This document shows positions 3,594-59,653 of a DNA stretch of 64,000 nt, one piece after another. The position numbers were made by a program, and so were the translations under genes. The DNA lies in NCBI GenBank assembly GCA_020853525.1, contig JADYYS010000036.1, forward strand, positions 1 to 64,000, given 5' to 3'. Source of the stretch: Ardenticatenales bacterium. GTDB taxonomy: Bacteria > Chloroflexota > Anaerolineae > Epilineales > Epilineaceae. Under the pieces are notes generated by a model. The model did not search any database and was not told where the DNA came from. It worked only from the letters and a program-made list of their open reading frames with translations. Every line of letters starts with the position of its first letter. The stretch's first letter is position 1.

Positions 3594-4629
3594 CGCCCAT
3601 CCCTTCGGTTGTGCCGCCGGGGCCGGCGACGCCCGCCCCGCCGGCGGACGGCCGGGCCGACATCCGCCGCGACCACACGTCCCGGCAGCCCGCCGCGAGC
3701 CCGCGCACGTAGGCCGCACCGGTTGCCGGGCGGCCGCCGACGAGCGACCGCGCCAGCGTCAGCCCGAGGCTGACGATCCGAACCGCCACGATGACCGCGC
3801 GGTGCGCGCCGCGACTGTGCGCGGTGTAGTACGACACGCTCGATCGCGCCAGCAGGAAGGCCTGCGCCGGTGAGCCGACGCCGGTGGACGCCGCGACGTG
3901 GTGGGCGATGCGGGCGCTCGGCACGTGCGCCAGCCGGAAGCCGGCCGCGCGGGCGCGCAGGCAGAGGTCGTGGTCCTCGTAGTAGACCCGGAAGCGCTCG
4001 TCGAACAGGCCGATCCGCTCCCAGAGGGCCCGCCGGACGAGGATGCAGCAGCCGTTCGCCCAGTCGATGTCGTACGGACGGGGGGAAGGGGGCTCGGCCG
4101 TCGTGTCGTGCGCATCGAGCGTCCAGCTTCCGCGGAATCCGGCCGACGGCCAGACGGCGTGCGGCGGGTCGAAGTACGTGACGGTCGGCGCGACGAGACC
4201 GAGCGGCCCGCGGCGCGGCGCACGGCCGGGCAGCGGCGCAGCGGCAAGCTCGGCCACGGCGGCGCCGGCGTAGAGCTCCGTCAGCAGGGACGGATCGGCG
4301 ACGGTGTCGTTGTTCACCAGCAGCGTCCAGGCCGCGCCTGCGTCCAACGCCCGGCGGATCCCGATGTTCGCGCCGGCCGCAAAGCCGAGATTCTCGGGGA
4401 GCGCCACGAGCCCGACGCGCGGGTACGCCGCGCGCACCGCCTCGGCCGAGCCGTCCGTCGACCCGTTGTCGACGACGACGATGCGGTGGTCGACGCCGGC
4501 CGGGACGGCCATCGCCGCCAGGCTCTCCAAGCACGCGAGCGTCAGATCGCGGCGATTCCAGCTCAACACGACCGACGTCACGACGACGTCGGGCGGCGCG
4601 GCGTGGATGATCGCTCGCCTCACCACCAC
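3580..4629 (-). CDS. Family 2 glycosyltransferase
   Basis: 349 residues. The GT-A fold signatures are present: SVVLSWNRRDLT at the N-terminus, VVVDNGSTDGS at about residue 45, VNNDT in place of the DxD metal site, and EDHDLCLRARAAGF near residue 220. These resemble rhamnosyltransferase-like GT2 enzymes that build cell-surface polysaccharide from nucleotide sugars. A hydrophobic stretch near residue 290 may associate with the membrane. The GTG at 4629 was chosen because it overlaps the stop of the radical SAM gene (TAGTG) and has AAGGG 5 nt upstream; two more GTG codons follow directly. The sugar donor cannot be told from sequence. Confidence 0.85.
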   Translation of the reverse strand: MVVRRAIIHAAPPDVVVTSVVLSWNRRDLTLACLESLAAMAVPAGVDHRIVVVDNGSTDGSAEAVRAAYPRVGLVALPENLGFAAGANIGIRRALDAGAAWTLLVNNDTVADPSLLTELYAGAAVAELAAAPLPGRAPRRGPLGLVAPTVTYFDPPHAVWPSAGFRGSWTLDAHDTTAEPPSPRPYDIDWANGCCILVRRALWERIGLFDERFRVYYEDHDLCLRARAAGFRLAHVPSARIAHHVAASTGVGSPAQAFLLARSSVSYYTAHSRGAHRAVIVAVRIVSLGLTLARSLVGGRPATGAAYVRGLAAGCRDVWSRRMSARPSAGGAGVAGPGGTTEGMGDDER

Positions 4630-12942: not shown

Positions 12943-13184
12943 GGTGTTGGGAAATTGGGCGTTACGCACGTTTGTCGAACGCGACTTCATTCCTGGACGA
13001 TCCCCCAATGCGTCGGGTGTGATGCAGCACGGCCGATGGGCACGGACCGCAAAGCGGCCCGTCTTCTCAGTTCGGGACTCCTTGGTGCGACCGCACTGAG
13101 GTGCGACGAGTCCGGCAATGGCGGGCAGTCAGAGATAGCCGTTTCCGCTGCCCCGGACGGCGAACGCGATGCGGAGGATAAGGC

Positions 13185-16100
13185 ATGAGCCATCGACACG
13201 CGGCGGTGTTGCTGACAGCGGGAGCCGCCCTGCTGGTTGTCCTGACCGGCTCGACCCCCACGCGCGGGGCGGCGCCGGGCACCGCCGAACACCCGGCGTC
13301 CCTTCCGGCCCCGTGGTCGGCCGACGGCGGGGCCCTGCCGGGGGTGCTCGGTCCGGACGACGCCGCGCCCGCCGGCGGCGGCCTTGTGTCGCGATCGCAC
13401 GGCGCCGGTGGGCCGGTCGTGGCTGCCGGTGGGCAGGCTGCCGAGCCGCTGCAGTCGGATCTCGACGACGACCCGGGCTACATTCCGAACCGCCTCATCG
13501 TCGGCTTTCGCCCGGAGGCGACCGACGAGTACAAGCGCAAGCTGCACGAGAAGTACGGCGGGCAGGTCATCGACCAGATCCAGAACCTGAACATCCAGGT
13601 GCTCCGGGTCACCGACACGGACCTGCTCACCCAGGTTCGGGCCTATCAGTCCGAAGTGCAGGTGGCCTTTGCCGAGCCGGACTACCTGGCGCACATCCTC
13701 GGCGAACCCGACCCGGTGTCGCCCCGTGCGGACGTTGCGGCCGGGCAGGCCGGCGGACGAAACCCATTGGACCGACTCGGCCTCCAGATCACCCCGAACG
13801 ATCCGATGGTCGGCTCGCAGTGGCACCACACCAAGATCGAGTCGGCGGCCGCGTGGGACCGCCAGCGCGGCGCCGGGATCACGATCGCCATCGTCGACAC
13901 CGGCACGAACTGCAGCCATCCGGACCTGGCCGGCAAGTGCGTCGCGGGTTACGATTATGTCAACCGCGACAACAACCCGGCCGACGACCAGGGCCACGGC
14001 ACGCACGTCGCCGGCATCGCGGCGATGCAGACGAACAACGGGGTCGGCGGCGCCGGCGTCGGTTGGGACAGCCGGATCATGCCGGTCAAGGTGCTCGACC
14101 GAACCGGCAACGGTGGTCACTCCGCGATCGCCAGCGGGATCACGTTCGCGGCCGACAACGGCGCGCAGGTGATCAACATGAGCCTCGGCGGCGCGTTCAC
14201 GTCTTCGACGCTCCGGAATGCGGTCGACTACGCGATTCAGCGCGGCGTCGTCGTCTTGGCGGCGGCGGGCAACGAAAATACGTCGAACCCGAGCTATCCG
14301 GCCGCCTACAACGGCGTCATCGGGATCGCGGCCACCTCGCAGTCGGATCAACGGGCCAGCTTCTCGAACTACGGCAACGCGGTCGATGTCGCCGCGCCCG
14401 GCGTCGCGATCCTCTCGACGGTCATGACGGGCGGCTACCAGCCATGGAGCGGCACGAGCATGGCCTGTCCCGTCGCGGCCGGGCTCGCGGCGCTCCTGGT
14501 GGCCCAGAACCCGAGCCGTACACCGGCGCAGGTCGAACAGATCCTCGAGCAATCGGCCGACGATCTCGGGGATGCCGGCTGGGATCCGTACTTCGGCTGG
14601 GGCCGGATCAACGCCCGCAAGGCGCTGAACCTGGCGCCCGGCACGACGACGCCCGGCACGCCCGCGGGCGGCGGGACGAGTACCGCCCCGCCGCCGACCC
14701 AGGCGACGGCAACGCCGTCCGGCAATTTCGTGCTCCAGGTCGAGGAGCTGATCAATCTGAAGCGCGCCGGCGCCGGCCTCAACCCGCTGGCCTCGAGCCA
14801 GCAGCTGCGCAACGCCTCGACCCGCCACTCGAACGACATGGCGTCCGGCAACTTCTGCGGGCACGACGGCACGGATGGCAGCACCGCCCAGTCGCGGATG
14901 CTGGACGCGGGCTACGGCCAGCCTTACGGCGAGATCGTGGCCTGCGGGCTCGTGTCGCCGGCGGCGGCCGTCGAAGCGTGGTGGAACAGTCCCGCGCACA
15001 AGGCGATCATGTTGTGCACGACGTGCACCGAGCTCGGTGCCGGGTACCGTAACATCGGCACGTACGGCCACTTCTGGACGGTCGATTTCGGCCGCCGGAC
15101 CGTGTCGGGCGCCACGCCGACGCTGGCGAGCACGGTGCCGCCGCCGGTCACCGGCACCGCTGCGCCGTCCGCGACTCCGCCACCGCCGACACCGACGCTC
15201 CACGCGCCGCCGGGTGGCGTGAACGTCGAGATCGCGCCGCGCAACAACAAGGCCGGCTGGGTCGTGAGCAATGTGCCCAACCAGAACTTCTTCACGGATG
15301 AGGAGGACACGTTCACCGGGACGTACGCCAACCGGACCTATCACGGCGCGGCCCAATTCGAACTCGGCGTGATCCCGGCCGGCGCGACGATCAACAGCGC
15401 CCGGCTGGAGATGATCGGCCGGGACGCCTCGTTCCTTGGCGTCGGCGGCACTTGGACGGTGAACCTGCTGCGGACCGACATCGACGCCGGCTTCGCCGGC
15501 CAGGGCTACACCGGGATACACAATGCGGCCATCGACGTCACGTTGATGCCGCTGCTCGGTCGCGACCTGCTGGGCGAATCGCAGAAGAACGCGTTCAACA
15601 TGGACGACGGCGCGCTGAACGTGCTCCGCGCGCGGCATCTCGGCTCGCGCGCCCTTTCGATCCGGATGGACGGTCCGCCCCCCGGCGGCAACGTCACGAA
15701 CCTCTTCACGTGGGACACCGGCTACGGCCAGACGACGCGGTATGCCGGCGTGCGGCTGTTCGTGAACTACAGCACGGCCGGCAGCGGCCCCCCGCCGTCC
15801 GCCACGCCGTCGCCGACCGAACCGCCGGCGCCGAACACGGCGACGCCGACCGTCGGAGCGTCCCCGACCCCGACGGTGACGCTCGTCCCGCCGACCGCGA
15901 CGTTCACCGCGCCGCCGCCGCCGCCGACCGCCACGCCGTCGCCGACGCTCGTGATTCCGCCGACGCGCGAACCGGACGGCAACGAGATCGACATCCTGCC
16001 GGCATGCCTGGACGTGGGCTATGTCCGCTCGTACGAGGCGTTCAACCACTTCTGCGACGACGACATGTTCGCCGGCTACTACCAGGGCCGGATCTACTTC

Positions 16101-16964
16101 GGCGGCGTTCAGTTCGACCTCTCGGCCGTGCCGGCCGGGCGGGCGGTGCGCAGCGCGCGGCTCCTGATGAACGGCCTGTCGACCCGCTACCTTTCCGATG
16201 CGGGCAACGGCGTCTGGGAGGCGAACCTGCTCGAAGCCGCCGTCGACGGCGGCTGGCGCGGCGTGTCGTACGAGTCGCTGCGCAGCGCCAGGATCTCGTC
16301 CAAGCTCCAGCCGCAGCTGCACCAGTACGACCTTGGCGTCGGCGTCCAGAACGTCTTCACGTTCGATGCGACGCAGCTGCGCGAGCTCGAGTTCCGCAAG
16401 GAAGCCACGGGCAAGGTCAGCTTCCGGATGGACGGCCCGCAGATCGGCGTGAGCAACGTCATGGACTGGGACACCGGTTTCGGCGCCGGGCAGCGAAATC
16501 CGCCGATCCTGCGGATCACGCTCGGCCCGCCCGGCAGCGGCGAGCCGGTGCCGACGAAGTCGACGGACGACTTGGCGAAGATCAACGAGATCGTGGCCGA
16601 GATCAACCGGGTGCGCGTGGCGAACGGCCGCGGCACGGTGGCGGTGTCCAGCGAACTGCAGTCCGCGGCCGGGACGCACAACACGGACATGATCCGCAAC
16701 AGCTTCTTCAGCCACACCGGCAGCGACGGCTCGTCGCCCGCCCAGCGCGTCGCACGCACCGGCTACCCCGCCACGGCGGTCGGCGAGCTGCTGGCCGCCG
16801 CCAACGGCACGCCGGCGGTCGTCGTGCAGGCCTGGCTGGATCAGGGGCAGCGGGACACCGTCCTCGACCCGTCGTACACCCAGATCGGCGCCCACTACCA
16901 GTTCGTCCGCGCCGTCGGCTACCAGCACTACTGGACGGTGGTGCTCGCCGCAAGGGCCCCTTGA
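13185..16964 (+). CDS. Secreted multidomain subtilisin-like protease with two CAP domains
   Basis: 1259 residues; the ATG has GGAGG 7 nt upstream. After a signal peptide comes an S8 propeptide-like region (about 95-165) and a subtilase domain (about 205-480). The complete triad is visible: Asp in AIVDTGTN (about 238), His in GHGTHVAG (about 272), Ser in SGTSMACP (about 424). A CAP/SCP domain (about 512-645; HSNDMASGNFCGHDG) follows, then a beta-rich domain of about 180 residues (about 680-862), a Pro/Thr linker, a second copy of that domain (about 935-1115) and a second CAP domain (about 1130-1258; HNTDMIRNSFFSHTG). No anchor is seen, so it is probably released. The two beta-rich domains resemble a DNRLRE-type adhesive domain also present in the 970-residue protein at 22873-25785. 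Confidence 0.92.
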   Translation: MSHRHAAVLLTAGAALLVVLTGSTPTRGAAPGTAEHPASLPAPWSADGGALPGVLGPDDAAPAGGGLVSRSHGAGGPVVAAGGQAAEPLQSDLDDDPGYIPNRLIVGFRPEATDEYKRKLHEKYGGQVIDQIQNLNIQVLRVTDTDLLTQVRAYQSEVQVAFAEPDYLAHILGEPDPVSPRADVAAGQAGGRNPLDRLGLQITPNDPMVGSQWHHTKIESAAAWDRQRGAGITIAIVDTGTNCSHPDLAGKCVAGYDYVNRDNNPADDQGHGTHVAGIAAMQTNNGVGGAGVGWDSRIMPVKVLDRTGNGGHSAIASGITFAADNGAQVINMSLGGAFTSSTLRNAVDYAIQRGVVVLAAAGNENTSNPSYPAAYNGVIGIAATSQSDQRASFSNYGNAVDVAAPGVAILSTVMTGGYQPWSGTSMACPVAAGLAALLVAQNPSRTPAQVEQILEQSADDLGDAGWDPYFGWGRINARKALNLAPGTTTPGTPAGGGTSTAPPPTQATATPSGNFVLQVEELINLKRAGAGLNPLASSQQLRNASTRHSNDMASGNFCGHDGTDGSTAQSRMLDAGYGQPYGEIVACGLVSPAAAVEAWWNSPAHKAIMLCTTCTELGAGYRNIGTYGHFWTVDFGRRTVSGATPTLASTVPPPVTGTAAPSATPPPPTPTLHAPPGGVNVEIAPRNNKAGWVVSNVPNQNFFTDEEDTFTGTYANRTYHGAAQFELGVIPAGATINSARLEMIGRDASFLGVGGTWTVNLLRTDIDAGFAGQGYTGIHNAAIDVTLMPLLGRDLLGESQKNAFNMDDGALNVLRARHLGSRALSIRMDGPPPGGNVTNLFTWDTGYGQTTRYAGVRLFVNYSTAGSGPPPSATPSPTEPPAPNTATPTVGASPTPTVTLVPPTATFTAPPPPPTATPSPTLVIPPTREPDGNEIDILPACLDVGYVRSYEAFNHFCDDDMFAGYYQGRIYFGGVQFDLSAVPAGRAVRSARLLMNGLSTRYLSDAGNGVWEANLLEAAVDGGWRGVSYESLRSARISSKLQPQLHQYDLGVGVQNVFTFDATQLRELEFRKEATGKVSFRMDGPQIGVSNVMDWDTGFGAGQRNPPILRITLGPPGSGEPVPTKSTDDLAKINEIVAEINRVRVANGRGTVAVSSELQSAAGTHNTDMIRNSFFSHTGSDGSSPAQRVARTGYPATAVGELLAAANGTPAVVVQAWLDQGQRDTVLDPSYTQIGAHYQFVRAVGYQHYWTVVLAARAP

Positions 16965-17019
16965 CGGACGGACGAACCGGACGGCGCAAGCCATCTGACC
17001 GACTCGCGGCCGCTTCCTT

Positions 17020-22797: not shown

Positions 22798-22876
22798 CTA
22801 GCACTCTGTCACTGGACACGCGTCGGGGATCCGACAGAGGCAGGCTTCCGCAGACTCTGCAGTGACAGAGTACTAG
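22798..22876. repeat. 79-bp inverted-repeat element, copy A
   Basis: Seventeen-base arms CTAGCACTCTGTCACTG and CAGTGACAGAGTACTAG pair with one mismatch and enclose 45 nt. Copies of the same 79-bp length are at 28566-28644 and 59575-59653. The shared core is CACTGGACRCG near the left arm. The right arm contains the stop codon (TAG) of the 970-residue protein gene on the minus strand. Confidence 0.8.
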
Positions 22877-25785
22877 CGCAGTCGGGGGGGCCGGCGCAGG
22901 GTGAACGCGCGCATGACGAGCGGCAGGTAGACCCGCGGCCCGCGCTCGGGCGACAGCCCGAACAGGACGGTCGTCGTCGTCCCGTCCGTTACGAAGGCGC
23001 CCTGTTCGGATGGACCGGTCGTCACCCAGCCGGAGGGCGGCGCGACGCTCACGAAGAAGACGCCGGTCGGGAGCGTCGCACAGACGGGACGGTCCTGGCG
23101 GCTGCGCAGCTGACGGTAGGACGTATGGCGGTCCGTCAGCACGTCGATGAGGACATCGCCCTGCGCCGCCTCGCCGGCGTCGCGGAAGCCGTCGTGATTG
23201 CGGTCGTCGAACACGTCAACGCAGACCGTCCCGTGCGGGCCGTTCACGGTGGGCTCGGGCGTCGGTGAAAGAGTGGGGGCGCGCGTCGGAGGGACCGTCG
23301 GGCCGCGGGTGGGCGTGGCGGTCGGACGCGGCGGGCTCGGCGTCGGGCTTGGGGTCGTCGGCGCGCGGGCACCGAAGGCGAACGTCACGGACGCGTCGGC
23401 CATCGGCGCGCTGAAGTCGTACGCCCGCGTTCCGGAGGCCACGAGGTTGCGCGGCAGCTCGACGATCTCGAGGCGGTAGGCACCGTCCGCCAAGCCGCTC
23501 CAGCAGTGATCGGGGTCGTTCGCGCCGTGAGTCGTCCAGGTGATGAAGACGCCCGAGAGCTGGTGCGTCAGCCGGAGCGTCGCCCCGGCCAGGAACCGCT
23601 CGCCGGCGTCGCGCCGGCCGTCGCCGTTGCGGTCGTCGAAGGCGATGATGCACGCCTGGCGGCCGGTGAACGTCGAGGGGTCGCGGGTCGGGGTCGGCGG
23701 GCCGCTCGGCGTGTTCGTCGGCGTCACGCCCGGTGAAGTCGGCGTGGCCGAGGCGACGCGCGGGTCGGCGGTCGGGCCGTCCGTCGGCCCGGGCGGGAAC
23801 GTCGGCGTCGCGCTCGGCGTGGCGGTCGGCGTGCGGGCCAGGGCGGTCAGGGCGAGCCACGTCGCCGTGGCGCCGGGCCCGGCCGACGCCGTGACGCCCG
23901 GCGCCGCCGTCATCGTTGCCACCCAGGCCGCGGTGGCGGTCGCCGCGGCCGCCGTGACGGTCGGACCGGCGATAACCGTCGCGGCGACCTCGGTGCGGAT
24001 CGCGGCGCTCGTGGCCGTGGCCCCGGCGATCGCGGTGGCCGTCTGGGCGACCGGCGGGACGGTGGCCGACGGCGTCGGGGAGACGGACGGGGTCGGCGAG
24101 AGCGTCGGCACGGCAGAGATCGTCACGATCGGCGTCGGAGGCGGTGTGCCGGTGGTCGACGCCGTCGCGCTCGGACCACCGCCCGGCGTCGGCGACGTCG
24201 GCGACGGCGATGCGGTCGGAATCGGCGTCAGCGTGGCGGCAAGGCCGATCGCGTAGCTGACGACGAGCGCCGGCCCGCTCGCCGGATCGGGCGGTGACGG
24301 TTCACGGTTGTAGACATCCACGCCGGAGTGCCACGCCGCCAGGTTGTTCTCGTCGGGCAGCGGGCCGTCGACGCGGAACGAGGCGCGGCCGGAGCCGTCG
24401 ACGCGCGCTTCCAGGAGAGGGAGTTGCGCCGGGGCGAAGCCGAACGTGTTCTTGCGCCCCGGGAGGAGGTCGATCTCCTCCAGCGACGGGCCGATCTGGG
24501 CGGCGACGGCGGCGCTGCTCACCGTCAGGAACGTCGCATCCCGCCACCCGGCGTCGATCGCGCCGTCCAGCAGGACGACCTTCCACTCGCCGGTCTTCAG
24601 GAACTCGTTCGTCTGGCCGATGAGCTCGACGCGGGCGTCGAGGATGTTCGCCTCGGGCGGGATCTCGGACAGATCGAACTGGATCATCCCGTAGTGCGGG
24701 TTGTCGCCGCGGCCCCACATGCCGGCGTAGATCGAGGCGTAGCCGAGGTGGTTCTTCCGGTCGCGCTGCGCCGAGACCTTGGGCACGTAGCCGACGTCCG
24801 CCGGCGCGGGCCGAAGCGTGATCGTGTCGAACGACTGGGCGGGCGGCGGCGTCGGCGTCACCGTCGGCGGCGGGCCGGCGTACGTCGGCAGCGGCGTCGG
24901 GGTGACGGTGGCGTTGCCGGCCAGCCACTGGGCGGCGTCGGCATACTCCGTCTTGCAGTCGCGCGGGCAGTACTTCACGGTCACCGTCGCGCGGTCGACG
25001 ACCTTGATGATCCCTTGCGCCTGGTTCGATTCCTGCGTCGAGAACCGCAGCGGCTGGACCGCCCGGAACAGCGGGAACGATGCGGCGTCCTCGACGAGCT
25101 CGACGAGGATACCGACCGGATCGGCATCGCTGACGACGCGAACGGTGATCCGGTCCTTCTTGGACGCGTCGAGGTTCGCCGCCGGGTCGCGCGCCGTGAT
25201 GTCCGCCTGCGCCGCCGCGCCGTAGTAGACGTCGGCGTCGAAGGCGACATAGAGCCCGACGTACCACTCGATGCCGGCGCCGATGCCCGAGAACGGACCC
25301 TCGGGCCAAACCGCCGACGTGTAGTACGGGCTGCCGCCGGGCGGAATGCCGTTCTTCTTCTCGAACGTGATCGTCTCACAACCCTGGCCACTGTACACGA
25401 TGCCGTCGGGGTGGTTGACGAACTGCCGGCCGCCGCCCGAGTCCTTGACGAACACGCGCACGAGGTCCTCGAACGAGTGGCAGTAGATGATGTGGACGGT
25501 GTCCGTGCCCGCCGGGAACTCGGTGACGCCGGGGCCCTGCATGCAGTGGTTGTCGTCCAGCTGGGCCTGGTAGGTCTCGTCGCACATGTGGAGGTGCCAG
25601 GCCGGCGTGATGACCGGTGTCGCACAGTACGGCGGGCAGGCCTGCGCGGCGGCGCGCGGCGGCGCGGCCGTGGACACGACGTCCAGCACGAACAGCAGCG
25701 CCGACACCGCAATGCACAGGCCGAGCGGCCCGATGCGGCGTGCGGCGCTCCGCGGGGGGGCGGGGGGCTGCGGGAGGGTTGCCAT
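22873..25785 (-). CDS. Secreted multidomain adhesin-like protein with SdrD-B-type domains
   Basis: 970 residues with an N-terminal signal peptide. Residues about 50-280 form a Cys-containing domain not recognised (CPPYCATP, CHSFEDLVRVFVKDSGG). About 325-510 is the beta-rich DNRLRE-like domain also found twice in the subtilase/CAP protein (GMIQFDLSEIPPEANI, SFRVDGPLP, WHSGVD). A long Thr/Pro/Ala linker (about 515-690) follows. Two SdrD-B-like domains come next (DDRNGDGRRDAGE and DDRNHDGFRDAGE, each an Asp/Asn calcium-type loop). The end is RVYLPLVMRAF plus a basic tail. These features fit a secreted, calcium-stabilised adhesin; the ligand is unknown. The start has only a weak ribosome-binding site. 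Confidence 0.8.
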   Translation of the reverse strand: MATLPQPPAPPRSAARRIGPLGLCIAVSALLFVLDVVSTAAPPRAAAQACPPYCATPVITPAWHLHMCDETYQAQLDDNHCMQGPGVTEFPAGTDTVHIIYCHSFEDLVRVFVKDSGGGRQFVNHPDGIVYSGQGCETITFEKKNGIPPGGSPYYTSAVWPEGPFSGIGAGIEWYVGLYVAFDADVYYGAAAQADITARDPAANLDASKKDRITVRVVSDADPVGILVELVEDAASFPLFRAVQPLRFSTQESNQAQGIIKVVDRATVTVKYCPRDCKTEYADAAQWLAGNATVTPTPLPTYAGPPPTVTPTPPPAQSFDTITLRPAPADVGYVPKVSAQRDRKNHLGYASIYAGMWGRGDNPHYGMIQFDLSEIPPEANILDARVELIGQTNEFLKTGEWKVVLLDGAIDAGWRDATFLTVSSAAVAAQIGPSLEEIDLLPGRKNTFGFAPAQLPLLEARVDGSGRASFRVDGPLPDENNLAAWHSGVDVYNREPSPPDPASGPALVVSYAIGLAATLTPIPTASPSPTSPTPGGGPSATASTTGTPPPTPIVTISAVPTLSPTPSVSPTPSATVPPVAQTATAIAGATATSAAIRTEVAATVIAGPTVTAAAATATAAWVATMTAAPGVTASAGPGATATWLALTALARTPTATPSATPTFPPGPTDGPTADPRVASATPTSPGVTPTNTPSGPPTPTRDPSTFTGRQACIIAFDDRNGDGRRDAGERFLAGATLRLTHQLSGVFITWTTHGANDPDHCWSGLADGAYRLEIVELPRNLVASGTRAYDFSAPMADASVTFAFGARAPTTPSPTPSPPRPTATPTRGPTVPPTRAPTLSPTPEPTVNGPHGTVCVDVFDDRNHDGFRDAGEAAQGDVLIDVLTDRHTSYRQLRSRQDRPVCATLPTGVFFVSVAPPSGWVTTGPSEQGAFVTDGTTTTVLFGLSPERGPRVYLPLVMRAFTLRRPPRLR

Positions 25786-26008: not shown

Positions 26009-28501
<2,493 letters not shown>

Positions 28502-28565: not shown

Positions 28566-28644
28566 CCGGTTCACCGCCACTGGACACGCTCGGGGTTGCC
28601 ACCAGAGCGCGGAACCCGGAGATTCTGCAGAGGTGGTGTGCTTA
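28566..28644. repeat. 79-bp inverted-repeat element, copy B (degenerate)
   Basis: This has the same length and core (CACTGGACACG) as copies A and C, with arms matching at about 10 of 17 positions. Its right end coincides exactly with the TAA stop codon (28642-28644, minus strand) of the cohesin-domain protein gene. It lies 64 nt after the clpC stop. Confidence 0.65.
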
Positions 28645-29793
28645 GCGCCGCTCGCGGATCTCGTCGACGACCTCGTGCTCGATGTCCACCCCCCCCCGCC
28701 GCCGCCCCCGCAAGCCGCGCGCGATCCGCGGGCCGGCAGGCTCCGGCGCGCGGCCGAGGAAGTAGCCGAGGGTGGTGACCACCGCGGCGCCGGCGACGAC
28801 GGCGAGCCAGGCGAAGAGCGGCGTGCGGTCGCTGCCACCCAGCCCGCCGAGTGCCGCCGTGAGGCGGTTCACCACGTCGCGCGCCATTCCCCCGACGTCG
28901 CCGCCGCTGCCGCTGCCGCCGCCGATCTCCGAGGCAGGCGCGGACGCGGCGACAAGGCGATCGGATTGGGCGATGACCCCAGCCGCCGTCGCTTCGAGCG
29001 GTCCGTCGTTGACGATCACGTTGACCGGGGCGTCGAGCACGACGTCGTGCGCCACCCCATCGGCCGTGGTCACGGACGACGCGCCCGCGTTCAGCGTCAG
29101 CTCGGCGCTGCCGGCGGTCAGGGCCGCGAACGTGACGGTGGCGATATTGGGCGAACCGGTGGACAGCTGCGATGGGTCGGCGGCGGTCAGCACCAGCGAG
29201 AGGCGCAGACGGCCCGGCTCGAGGCGATGCTTGAAGTCCGCTTGCGCGCCGCTCATGGACAGCAACGGGTCCATGGTGATCGCGGTCACGGCGACGCGGT
29301 CGGCGTCGAAATGGAGGTCGAGCGTGACGCGCTGCACCGGCGCATCCGGCGACTGCAGCGCGACCGACACGGCTCGACCGCCCTCGGCTGCCAGCATGAG
29401 CATCGTCGGCGAGAGCGCGACGCGAACGGCGGCCGCGTCGCCGGCCGAGGCATCGTCCGCTGCGGCATCCTCGGCGGCGCCGGCCTGCCCCGTGATCGGG
29501 GCTCCACCGCTGGTTGACGGGTCGGTCGTCGGCACTCCGAACGGCATGCCGCCGAACGAGGGCGTCGGCACGCCGTACGGTGCCCCGCCGGCGCCGAGTC
29601 CGTTCGACGCCCCATCGCCGGACGGCGGCGGGTAGCTGCTGCCGGGCAGGTTCAACGGCGTCTGCGCCACCGCCGTCGCGCGCGTGCCGACGGCGACGAG
29701 CACGGCGAGGCACGCCGCGGCGAGCGGGAACGGCCGCCCGGCAGCCCGCCGCGCGTCGGGCGCAAGCGCCGGCCTAACGGGATCGGAGCGCAT
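28642..29793 (-). CDS. Membrane-anchored cohesin-domain protein
   Basis: 383 residues. A signal peptide (about 22-45) is followed by a Gly/Pro-rich and Ala/Asp-rich region (about 46-125), a cohesin-type beta domain (about 125-260; VTLDLHFDADRVAVTAI, NIATVTFAALTAGSAELTL) and near residue 330 one membrane segment (LFAWLAVVAGAAVVTTLGYFLG), then a basic tail (RGLRGRRRGG). Cohesins normally bind dockerins, yet I see no dockerin here, so its partner is unknown. The ATG overlaps the end of the second cohesin gene by 20 nt, so translational coupling is probable. The stop codon is formed by the end of a 79-bp repeat. Confidence 0.8.
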   Translation of the reverse strand: MRSDPVRPALAPDARRAAGRPFPLAAACLAVLVAVGTRATAVAQTPLNLPGSSYPPPSGDGASNGLGAGGAPYGVPTPSFGGMPFGVPTTDPSTSGGAPITGQAGAAEDAAADDASAGDAAAVRVALSPTMLMLAAEGGRAVSVALQSPDAPVQRVTLDLHFDADRVAVTAITMDPLLSMSGAQADFKHRLEPGRLRLSLVLTAADPSQLSTGSPNIATVTFAALTAGSAELTLNAGASSVTTADGVAHDVVLDAPVNVIVNDGPLEATAAGVIAQSDRLVAASAPASEIGGGSGSGGDVGGMARDVVNRLTAALGGLGGSDRTPLFAWLAVVAGAAVVTTLGYFLGRAPEPAGPRIARGLRGRRRGGVDIEHEVVDEIRERR

Positions 29794-59574: not shown

Positions 59575-59653
59575 CTCGTACCCCGTCACTGCTGAATCTC
59601 CGGATTCCGAACTCTGGTGGCTGCTCCGAGCGCGTCCAGTGGCGGGGTACGAG
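59575..59653. repeat. 79-bp inverted-repeat element, copy C
   Basis: Arms CTCGTACCCCGTCACTG (59575-59591) and CAGTGGCGGGGTACGAG (59637-59653) pair at 16 of 17 positions. Read on the minus strand it aligns with copy A over 79 bases with shared CACTGGACRCG and CAGTGAC. It sits immediately upstream of the isomerase start codon. Confidence 0.8.

Follow-up and report, generated by a model that had tools for sequence, protein, structure and literature searches.

A new family of 79-bp MITEs, very probably of the IS630 kind, bounded by CTAG, in a draft bacterial genome

The 79-bp inverted repeats described here form a new MITE family, and one of an ordinary, known kind: the IS630 type. Three copies lie in the 64,000-nucleotide stretch of DNA that was analysed (the window), and ∼65–67 occur in the genome from which it comes (G000; 4.27 Mb, a draft of 76 contigs, 97% complete). 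Very probably, the repeats are non-autonomous elements of the IS630 (Tc1/mariner) kind that were formerly mobilised by an IS630 transposase not found in the assembly. Their two arms change together, which an earlier note on this DNA took to indicate selection for a folded DNA or RNA. When the two ends of a transposon match, they can mimic covariation of the RNA type; the two are told apart by comparing, on the terminal branches of a tree of copies, the changes at paired sites with those at unpaired ones.

ANATOMY AND DISTRIBUTION OF THE FAMILY

A two-part pattern gave 13 exact matches in the whole of G000, and its reversed control gave none. A covariance model, the check that the earlier note had proposed, was built from 14 copies and recovered 67 distinct places at E ≤ 0.01 (best 1.7e-19). 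Fifty-one of these are exactly 79 bp long, with 48 distinct sequences among them. Four copies are identical and a fifth is one base off, all at unrelated sites, which indicates that the family moved recently. The copies have the properties by which MITEs are known: they are short, non-coding, dispersed and near-identical, and they carry terminal inverted repeats, the arms being paired at 87% of cells in the 14 copies. The consensus reads CTAG-TACnCYRYCACTG, a 45-bp core (GGACACGCT...AGAYTCTGC), then CAGTGRYRGnGTA-CTAG, such that the ends of the element are CTAGTAC...GTACTAG.

Bases beyond the CTAG are unconserved, and TA is present on both sides in most copies. Where two copies are adjacent, a single CTAG is common to both (C26:65306/65381 and C50:19987/20063), and 11 copies adjoin a second repeat, X, across the same shared dinucleotide. 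The TA inside CTAG thus behaves as a target duplication, since neighbours share one CTAG and an element-owned CTAG would give two. Because CTAG is palindromic, duplication of TA and duplication of CTAG look alike, and no empty site is available for comparison; that TA rather than CTAG is the exact duplication, and that IS630 mobilised the family in this lineage, we infer.

Repeat X is ∼250 bp long, has tips GTAGCCCGTCAC...GTGACGGGCTAC next to TA, and its core consists of nested hairpins (CCGGCAGCTGAAGCTGGCCGGCTG...GCCCGCCTTCGCGGGC...). It is present in contigs C6, C9, C14, C17, C26, C33, C35, C39, C47, C55, C72 and C73 (e.g. L061, L045, L048 and L057), often adjoins a 79-bp copy, and many contigs end inside it. 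The hairpin core also occurs on both sides (L096, about 2587–2730 and 3777–3922) of a gene for a 148-aa IS200-like Y1 transposase (L096:3233–3679, minus strand, contig C9). The core may be the substrate of this same enzyme, with an IS630-type MITE enclosing it.

The 79-bp family was not found in 59 relatives, nor in 395 other genomes of the class, a larger search run with strict filters; the genomes covered included just two others of the same taxonomic family. Plasmids gave no match to the 79-bp consensus or to a sister element. Viral contigs contained no 79-bp element, and their 10 matches to the bare 16-base tip all stood without a paired end.

THE THREE COPIES IN THE WINDOW

The three copies reported earlier in the window are at the positions given for them, and are laid out as follows:

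22798..22876, plus strand: copy A, CTAG to CTAG, of the CTCTGTCACTG-arm subfamily (covariance model E 8.4e-17)
22798..22801, unstranded: left CTAG of copy A; the TA at 22799–22800 is read as the target duplication, one CTAG being common to neighbouring elements
22801..22814, plus strand: left terminal inverted repeat of copy A (GCACTCTGTCACTG), from the sequence; IS630 tips are CTAGTACTCTGTCAAG
22860..22873, minus strand: right terminal inverted repeat of copy A (CAGTGACAGAGTAC), from the sequence
22873..22876, unstranded: right CTAG of copy A, which, read on the minus strand, gives the ORF at 22873–25785 its TAG stop codon
28566..28644, plus strand: copy B, decayed; arms paired at 10/17; right edge TTA (TAA on the minus strand)
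59575..59653, minus strand: copy C, with arms CTCGTACCCCGYCACTG (covariance model E 6.5e-16)

Copy C is opposite in orientation to A and B, and its 'CACTGGACGCG' core is on the minus strand. Once co-oriented, the three copies align without gaps through the core. The shared ending CAGTGAC that the earlier note described does not extend to copy B, which ends in CAGAGGTG. Read directly, the arms of copies A and C do pair at 16 of 17 positions; those of copy B, about which the note was silent, pair at just 10. Folding as DNA, A and C are far better than their shuffles (z −4.3 and −4.8), and B is not (z −0.8). The core 11-mer alone is near chance in the window (8 matches versus 6.7 expected), unlike the whole 79-bp element, which is far above it.

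Two of the copies end ORFs. Copy A supplies the TAG stop of the ORF at 22873–25785, which encodes 970 aa with an SdrD_B domain. The right edge of copy B is the TAA stop of a minus-strand ORF at 28642–29793, and on its opposite side lies a clpC-like ORF that ends at 28501. The 383-aa product of the ORF at 28642–29793, and that of another minus-strand ORF at 12987–16994 (1335 aa), have no Pfam match.

IS630 ELEMENTS WITH CTAGTAC TIPS

Tips of the CTAGTACnCnGTCA type occur both on the 79-bp element and on IS630 elements from other genomes of its phylum. A search with NF033545 identified three complete elements of the IS630 family (Tc1/mariner) in the phylum with CTAGTAC-type tips, which are 25/30 identical between the two ends:

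L245 and L262: 1412 bp, CTAGTAC at both ends
L238: 1247 bp, CTAGTAC at one end and CTAGTGC at the other

Five partial CTAGTAC ends in the phylum (L230, L234, L232, L229 and L227) also carry pieces of IS630 transposases. A search of the phylum with CTAGTACTCNGTCAMG found six places in five other genomes; the bare count of this sequence in 400 genomes is not above that of the reversed-pattern control, and the information lies only in the sequence next to the matches. The 14-base tip CTAGTACTCTGTCA, which one 79-bp subfamily shares base for base, is found in L230, L234, L232 and L229. In the first three of these it lies at the 3′ end of frames resembling the IS630 C-terminus (tblastn against L238: 6e-14 and 3e-14), and another part of L232 fits the IS630 family model (2.5e-12); L229 has the same arrangement, on a short match only (E 0.002). 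In L227, from genome G169, the tip CTAGTACTTGACCACACTGG is ∼170 bp before an IS630 N-terminus, and the genome contains short elements bearing this tip, too. Beyond GTCA, the tips of the 79-bp element (CTG) are unlike those of the IS630 elements found (AAG).

CTAGTAC-tipped short elements occur in other genomes of the class, too. The pattern CTAGTACN(52-82)GTACTAG matched 12 of 396 genomes, two of which proved to hold families: a 131-bp MITE family in G294, with tips CTAGTACTCAGTCAAG and CTAGTAGTCAGTCAAG (L217–L226), and a 90–98-bp family in G025, with tips CTAGTACnnnACCAA (L209–L216 and L228). Both are possible relatives of the 79-bp family. The elements in G025 enclose a REP hairpin of the GTAGGGGC type; that is, a REP nested in a MITE.

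PROPOSED ORIGIN AND MOBILISATION

The matched terminal repeats, GTACNCYRYCACTG...CAGTGRYRGNGTAC, would serve as recognition sites for a transposase acting in trans. This enzyme would excise the element and insert it at the TA within a CTAG, with duplication of the TA, to give C-TA-[element]-TA-G. The element starts with G, so a C-TAG stop at the target would be retained and the gene left intact. The long imperfect hairpin would arise from two matched terminal repeats facing one another across the 45-bp core, and the coordinated arm differences would distinguish subfamilies whose two ends changed together, the copies decaying freely thereafter.

G000 itself, as a 76-contig draft, contains no IS630 transposase detectable with PF13358 or NF033545, which is the chief gap in this account. 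The mobiliser may have been lost, may be missing from the 76-contig assembly, in which many contigs visibly end in repeat X, or may have been of another kind. MITEs can outlive their autonomous partner; the lack of an IS630 gene in the genome therefore lowers the claim that the family is mobile at present, but not the claim about its kind.

INSERTION AT STOP CODONS

By approximate gene calls (a crude, GC3-based method), 50 of the 56 copies with enough flanking sequence are between ORFs, and six are inside one. When a coding-like frame enters the element, it is usually the frame that ends in the terminal TAG (31 times, versus 2 and 4 for the other two frames). Twenty-six of 56 testable copies adjoin a coding-like frame whose stop codon is precisely the terminal one of the element, nearly always TAG; among other sampled CTAG sites, 8 of 41 are at the ends of coding frames (odds ratio 3.6, p 0.009).

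This placement is likely explained by the regenerated stop, which makes the insertion harmless, and the enrichment may be due to survival of such insertions and not to targeting. It would account for the dozens of hairpin insertions that are tolerated in a compact, GC-rich genome. A further proposal goes beyond this, and we hold it to be rather unlikely: that the family exploits C-TAG stops, keeping the frame and placing directly after the stop a strong hairpin that the host may use as an mRNA 3′ end, and that the arm changes could stem from one arm being corrected by the other through the hairpin.

ARM COVARIATION AND ALTERNATIVE EXPLANATIONS

The arms do change in a coordinated fashion, as first noticed in copies A and C: 11 matched double changes are found on the tree, versus a mean of 1.7 and a maximum of 6 in shuffles. 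These are confined to columns 8, 10, 11 and 12 of the terminal repeat and set subfamilies apart, and the same columns vary also among the IS630 tips of other genomes. Such matching at the subfamily level is as expected if both ends have to suit one transposase; it may also be that one arm corrects the other when the DNA is replicated. Together with the strong hairpin, and with the 26 of 56 testable copies that start at or adjoin the stop of a coding frame, the coordinated changes are also what one might look for in a structured RNA, or an mRNA 3′-end element, kept by selection on its fold. The changes that followed insertion speak against this. In a tree of 60 copies, the terminal branches carry 136 single changes by which an arm pair is broken, against 7 matched doubles (∼20 to 1); 6 other single changes restore a pair. 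Changes per site are alike in paired arm columns 5–17 (4.46), in the inner stem (4.39), and in the unpaired parts (4.33 and 4.40). Breaking changes dominate and site rates are alike; inserted copies thus decay regardless of pairing, and nothing that followed insertion points to the suggested selection for a folded DNA or RNA. Random arm mutations without compensation, named in the earlier note as the outcome that would contradict it, are largely what individual copies show, while subfamily-level matching is real. The inner stem, moreover, covaries little, Rfam has no match in the window, and the family is in one species only among the genomes searched. We regard conservation of the fold as highly improbable.

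The suggestion that these are REP or MITE elements held for the second and probably not for the first, the repeats having IS630-like ends and no GTAG tag. A REP-like element would move as single-stranded hairpin DNA, by means of a RAYT or another Y1 HUH enzyme, and the 79-bp element is indeed palindromic and mostly between genes. Two Y1 genes are present in G000, the IS200-like gene described above and a RAYT-like one, the REP-associated tyrosine transposase that it had been proposed to look for:

L095:3074–3574, contig C59, plus strand: RAYT-like gene, 166 aa (NCBIfam REP_Tyr_transpos 65 bits; cut-off 80)

One 79-bp copy lies 279 bp downstream of this gene and none upstream; it is the only one of the 67 nearby. 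Relatives of the RAYT, in many phyla, have GTAG-type repeats, GTAGGGGC...GCCCCTAC, on one or both sides, which differ from the 79-bp element, and RAYT was rejected as the mobiliser on this ground. The RAYT gene itself has a TACGGGGCAGG...CCTGCCCCTAC palindrome upstream. The 79-bp element has neither a GTAG nor a CGTC tag and ends in CTAGTAC...GTACTAG; its CTAG is common to neighbours, and identical tips bound DDE-type IS630 elements. Neither Y1 gene fits the element better than IS630 does, and a REP-like origin is improbable. That the element is a MITE of some other DDE family targeting CTAG or YTAR (e.g. IS701) is highly improbable. CTAG would also suit a 4-bp YTAR duplication, and some genomes that have CTAGTAC elements also have DDE_5 genes. 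But G000 has no DDE_5, the CTAGTAC ends that were found belong to IS630 genes, and none of the DDE_5 loci inspected has such ends, for which reason IS701/DDE_5 was rejected as the mobiliser. A search of the literature on IS701 and YTAR was without result.

COMPARISON WITH KNOWN SYSTEMS

The IS630 kind, our preferred assignment, can be set against three known systems. REP/BIME elements, and REPINs with RAYT (PMC3733652), are likewise palindromic, repeated, mostly intergenic and hairpin-forming. The 79-bp element differs in having no GTAG/CGTC tag, in sharing CTAG in the manner of a target duplication, and in ends that match DDE-type transposons. RUP of pneumococcus, a 107-bp MITE for which IS630-Spn1 has been proposed as the mover (PMC2229807), is similarly short and gene-less, has ∼100 copies that are mostly intergenic, and has IS630-like terminal repeats; its TA target is probably that of the 79-bp element too. 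Its sequence and length are different. Unlike RUP, the 79-bp element has 14-bp ends in a longer hairpin and a strong preference for CTAG, often lies at stop codons, and has no IS630 partner that could be found in its genome. From IS630 and ISY100 themselves (PMC2170065), the 79-bp element differs in having no transposase gene and in its length, 79 bp versus ∼1.2–1.4 kb. The target preference of IS630 is given as TA in 5′-CTAG-3′ in the title of Tenzen and Ohtsubo (1991), as cited in PMC2170065, and ISY100 duplicates TA (PMC2170065). The 79-bp element probably shares with them the TA-in-CTAG target, and has the CTAGTACnCnGTCA tips that are on IS630 elements of its own phylum.
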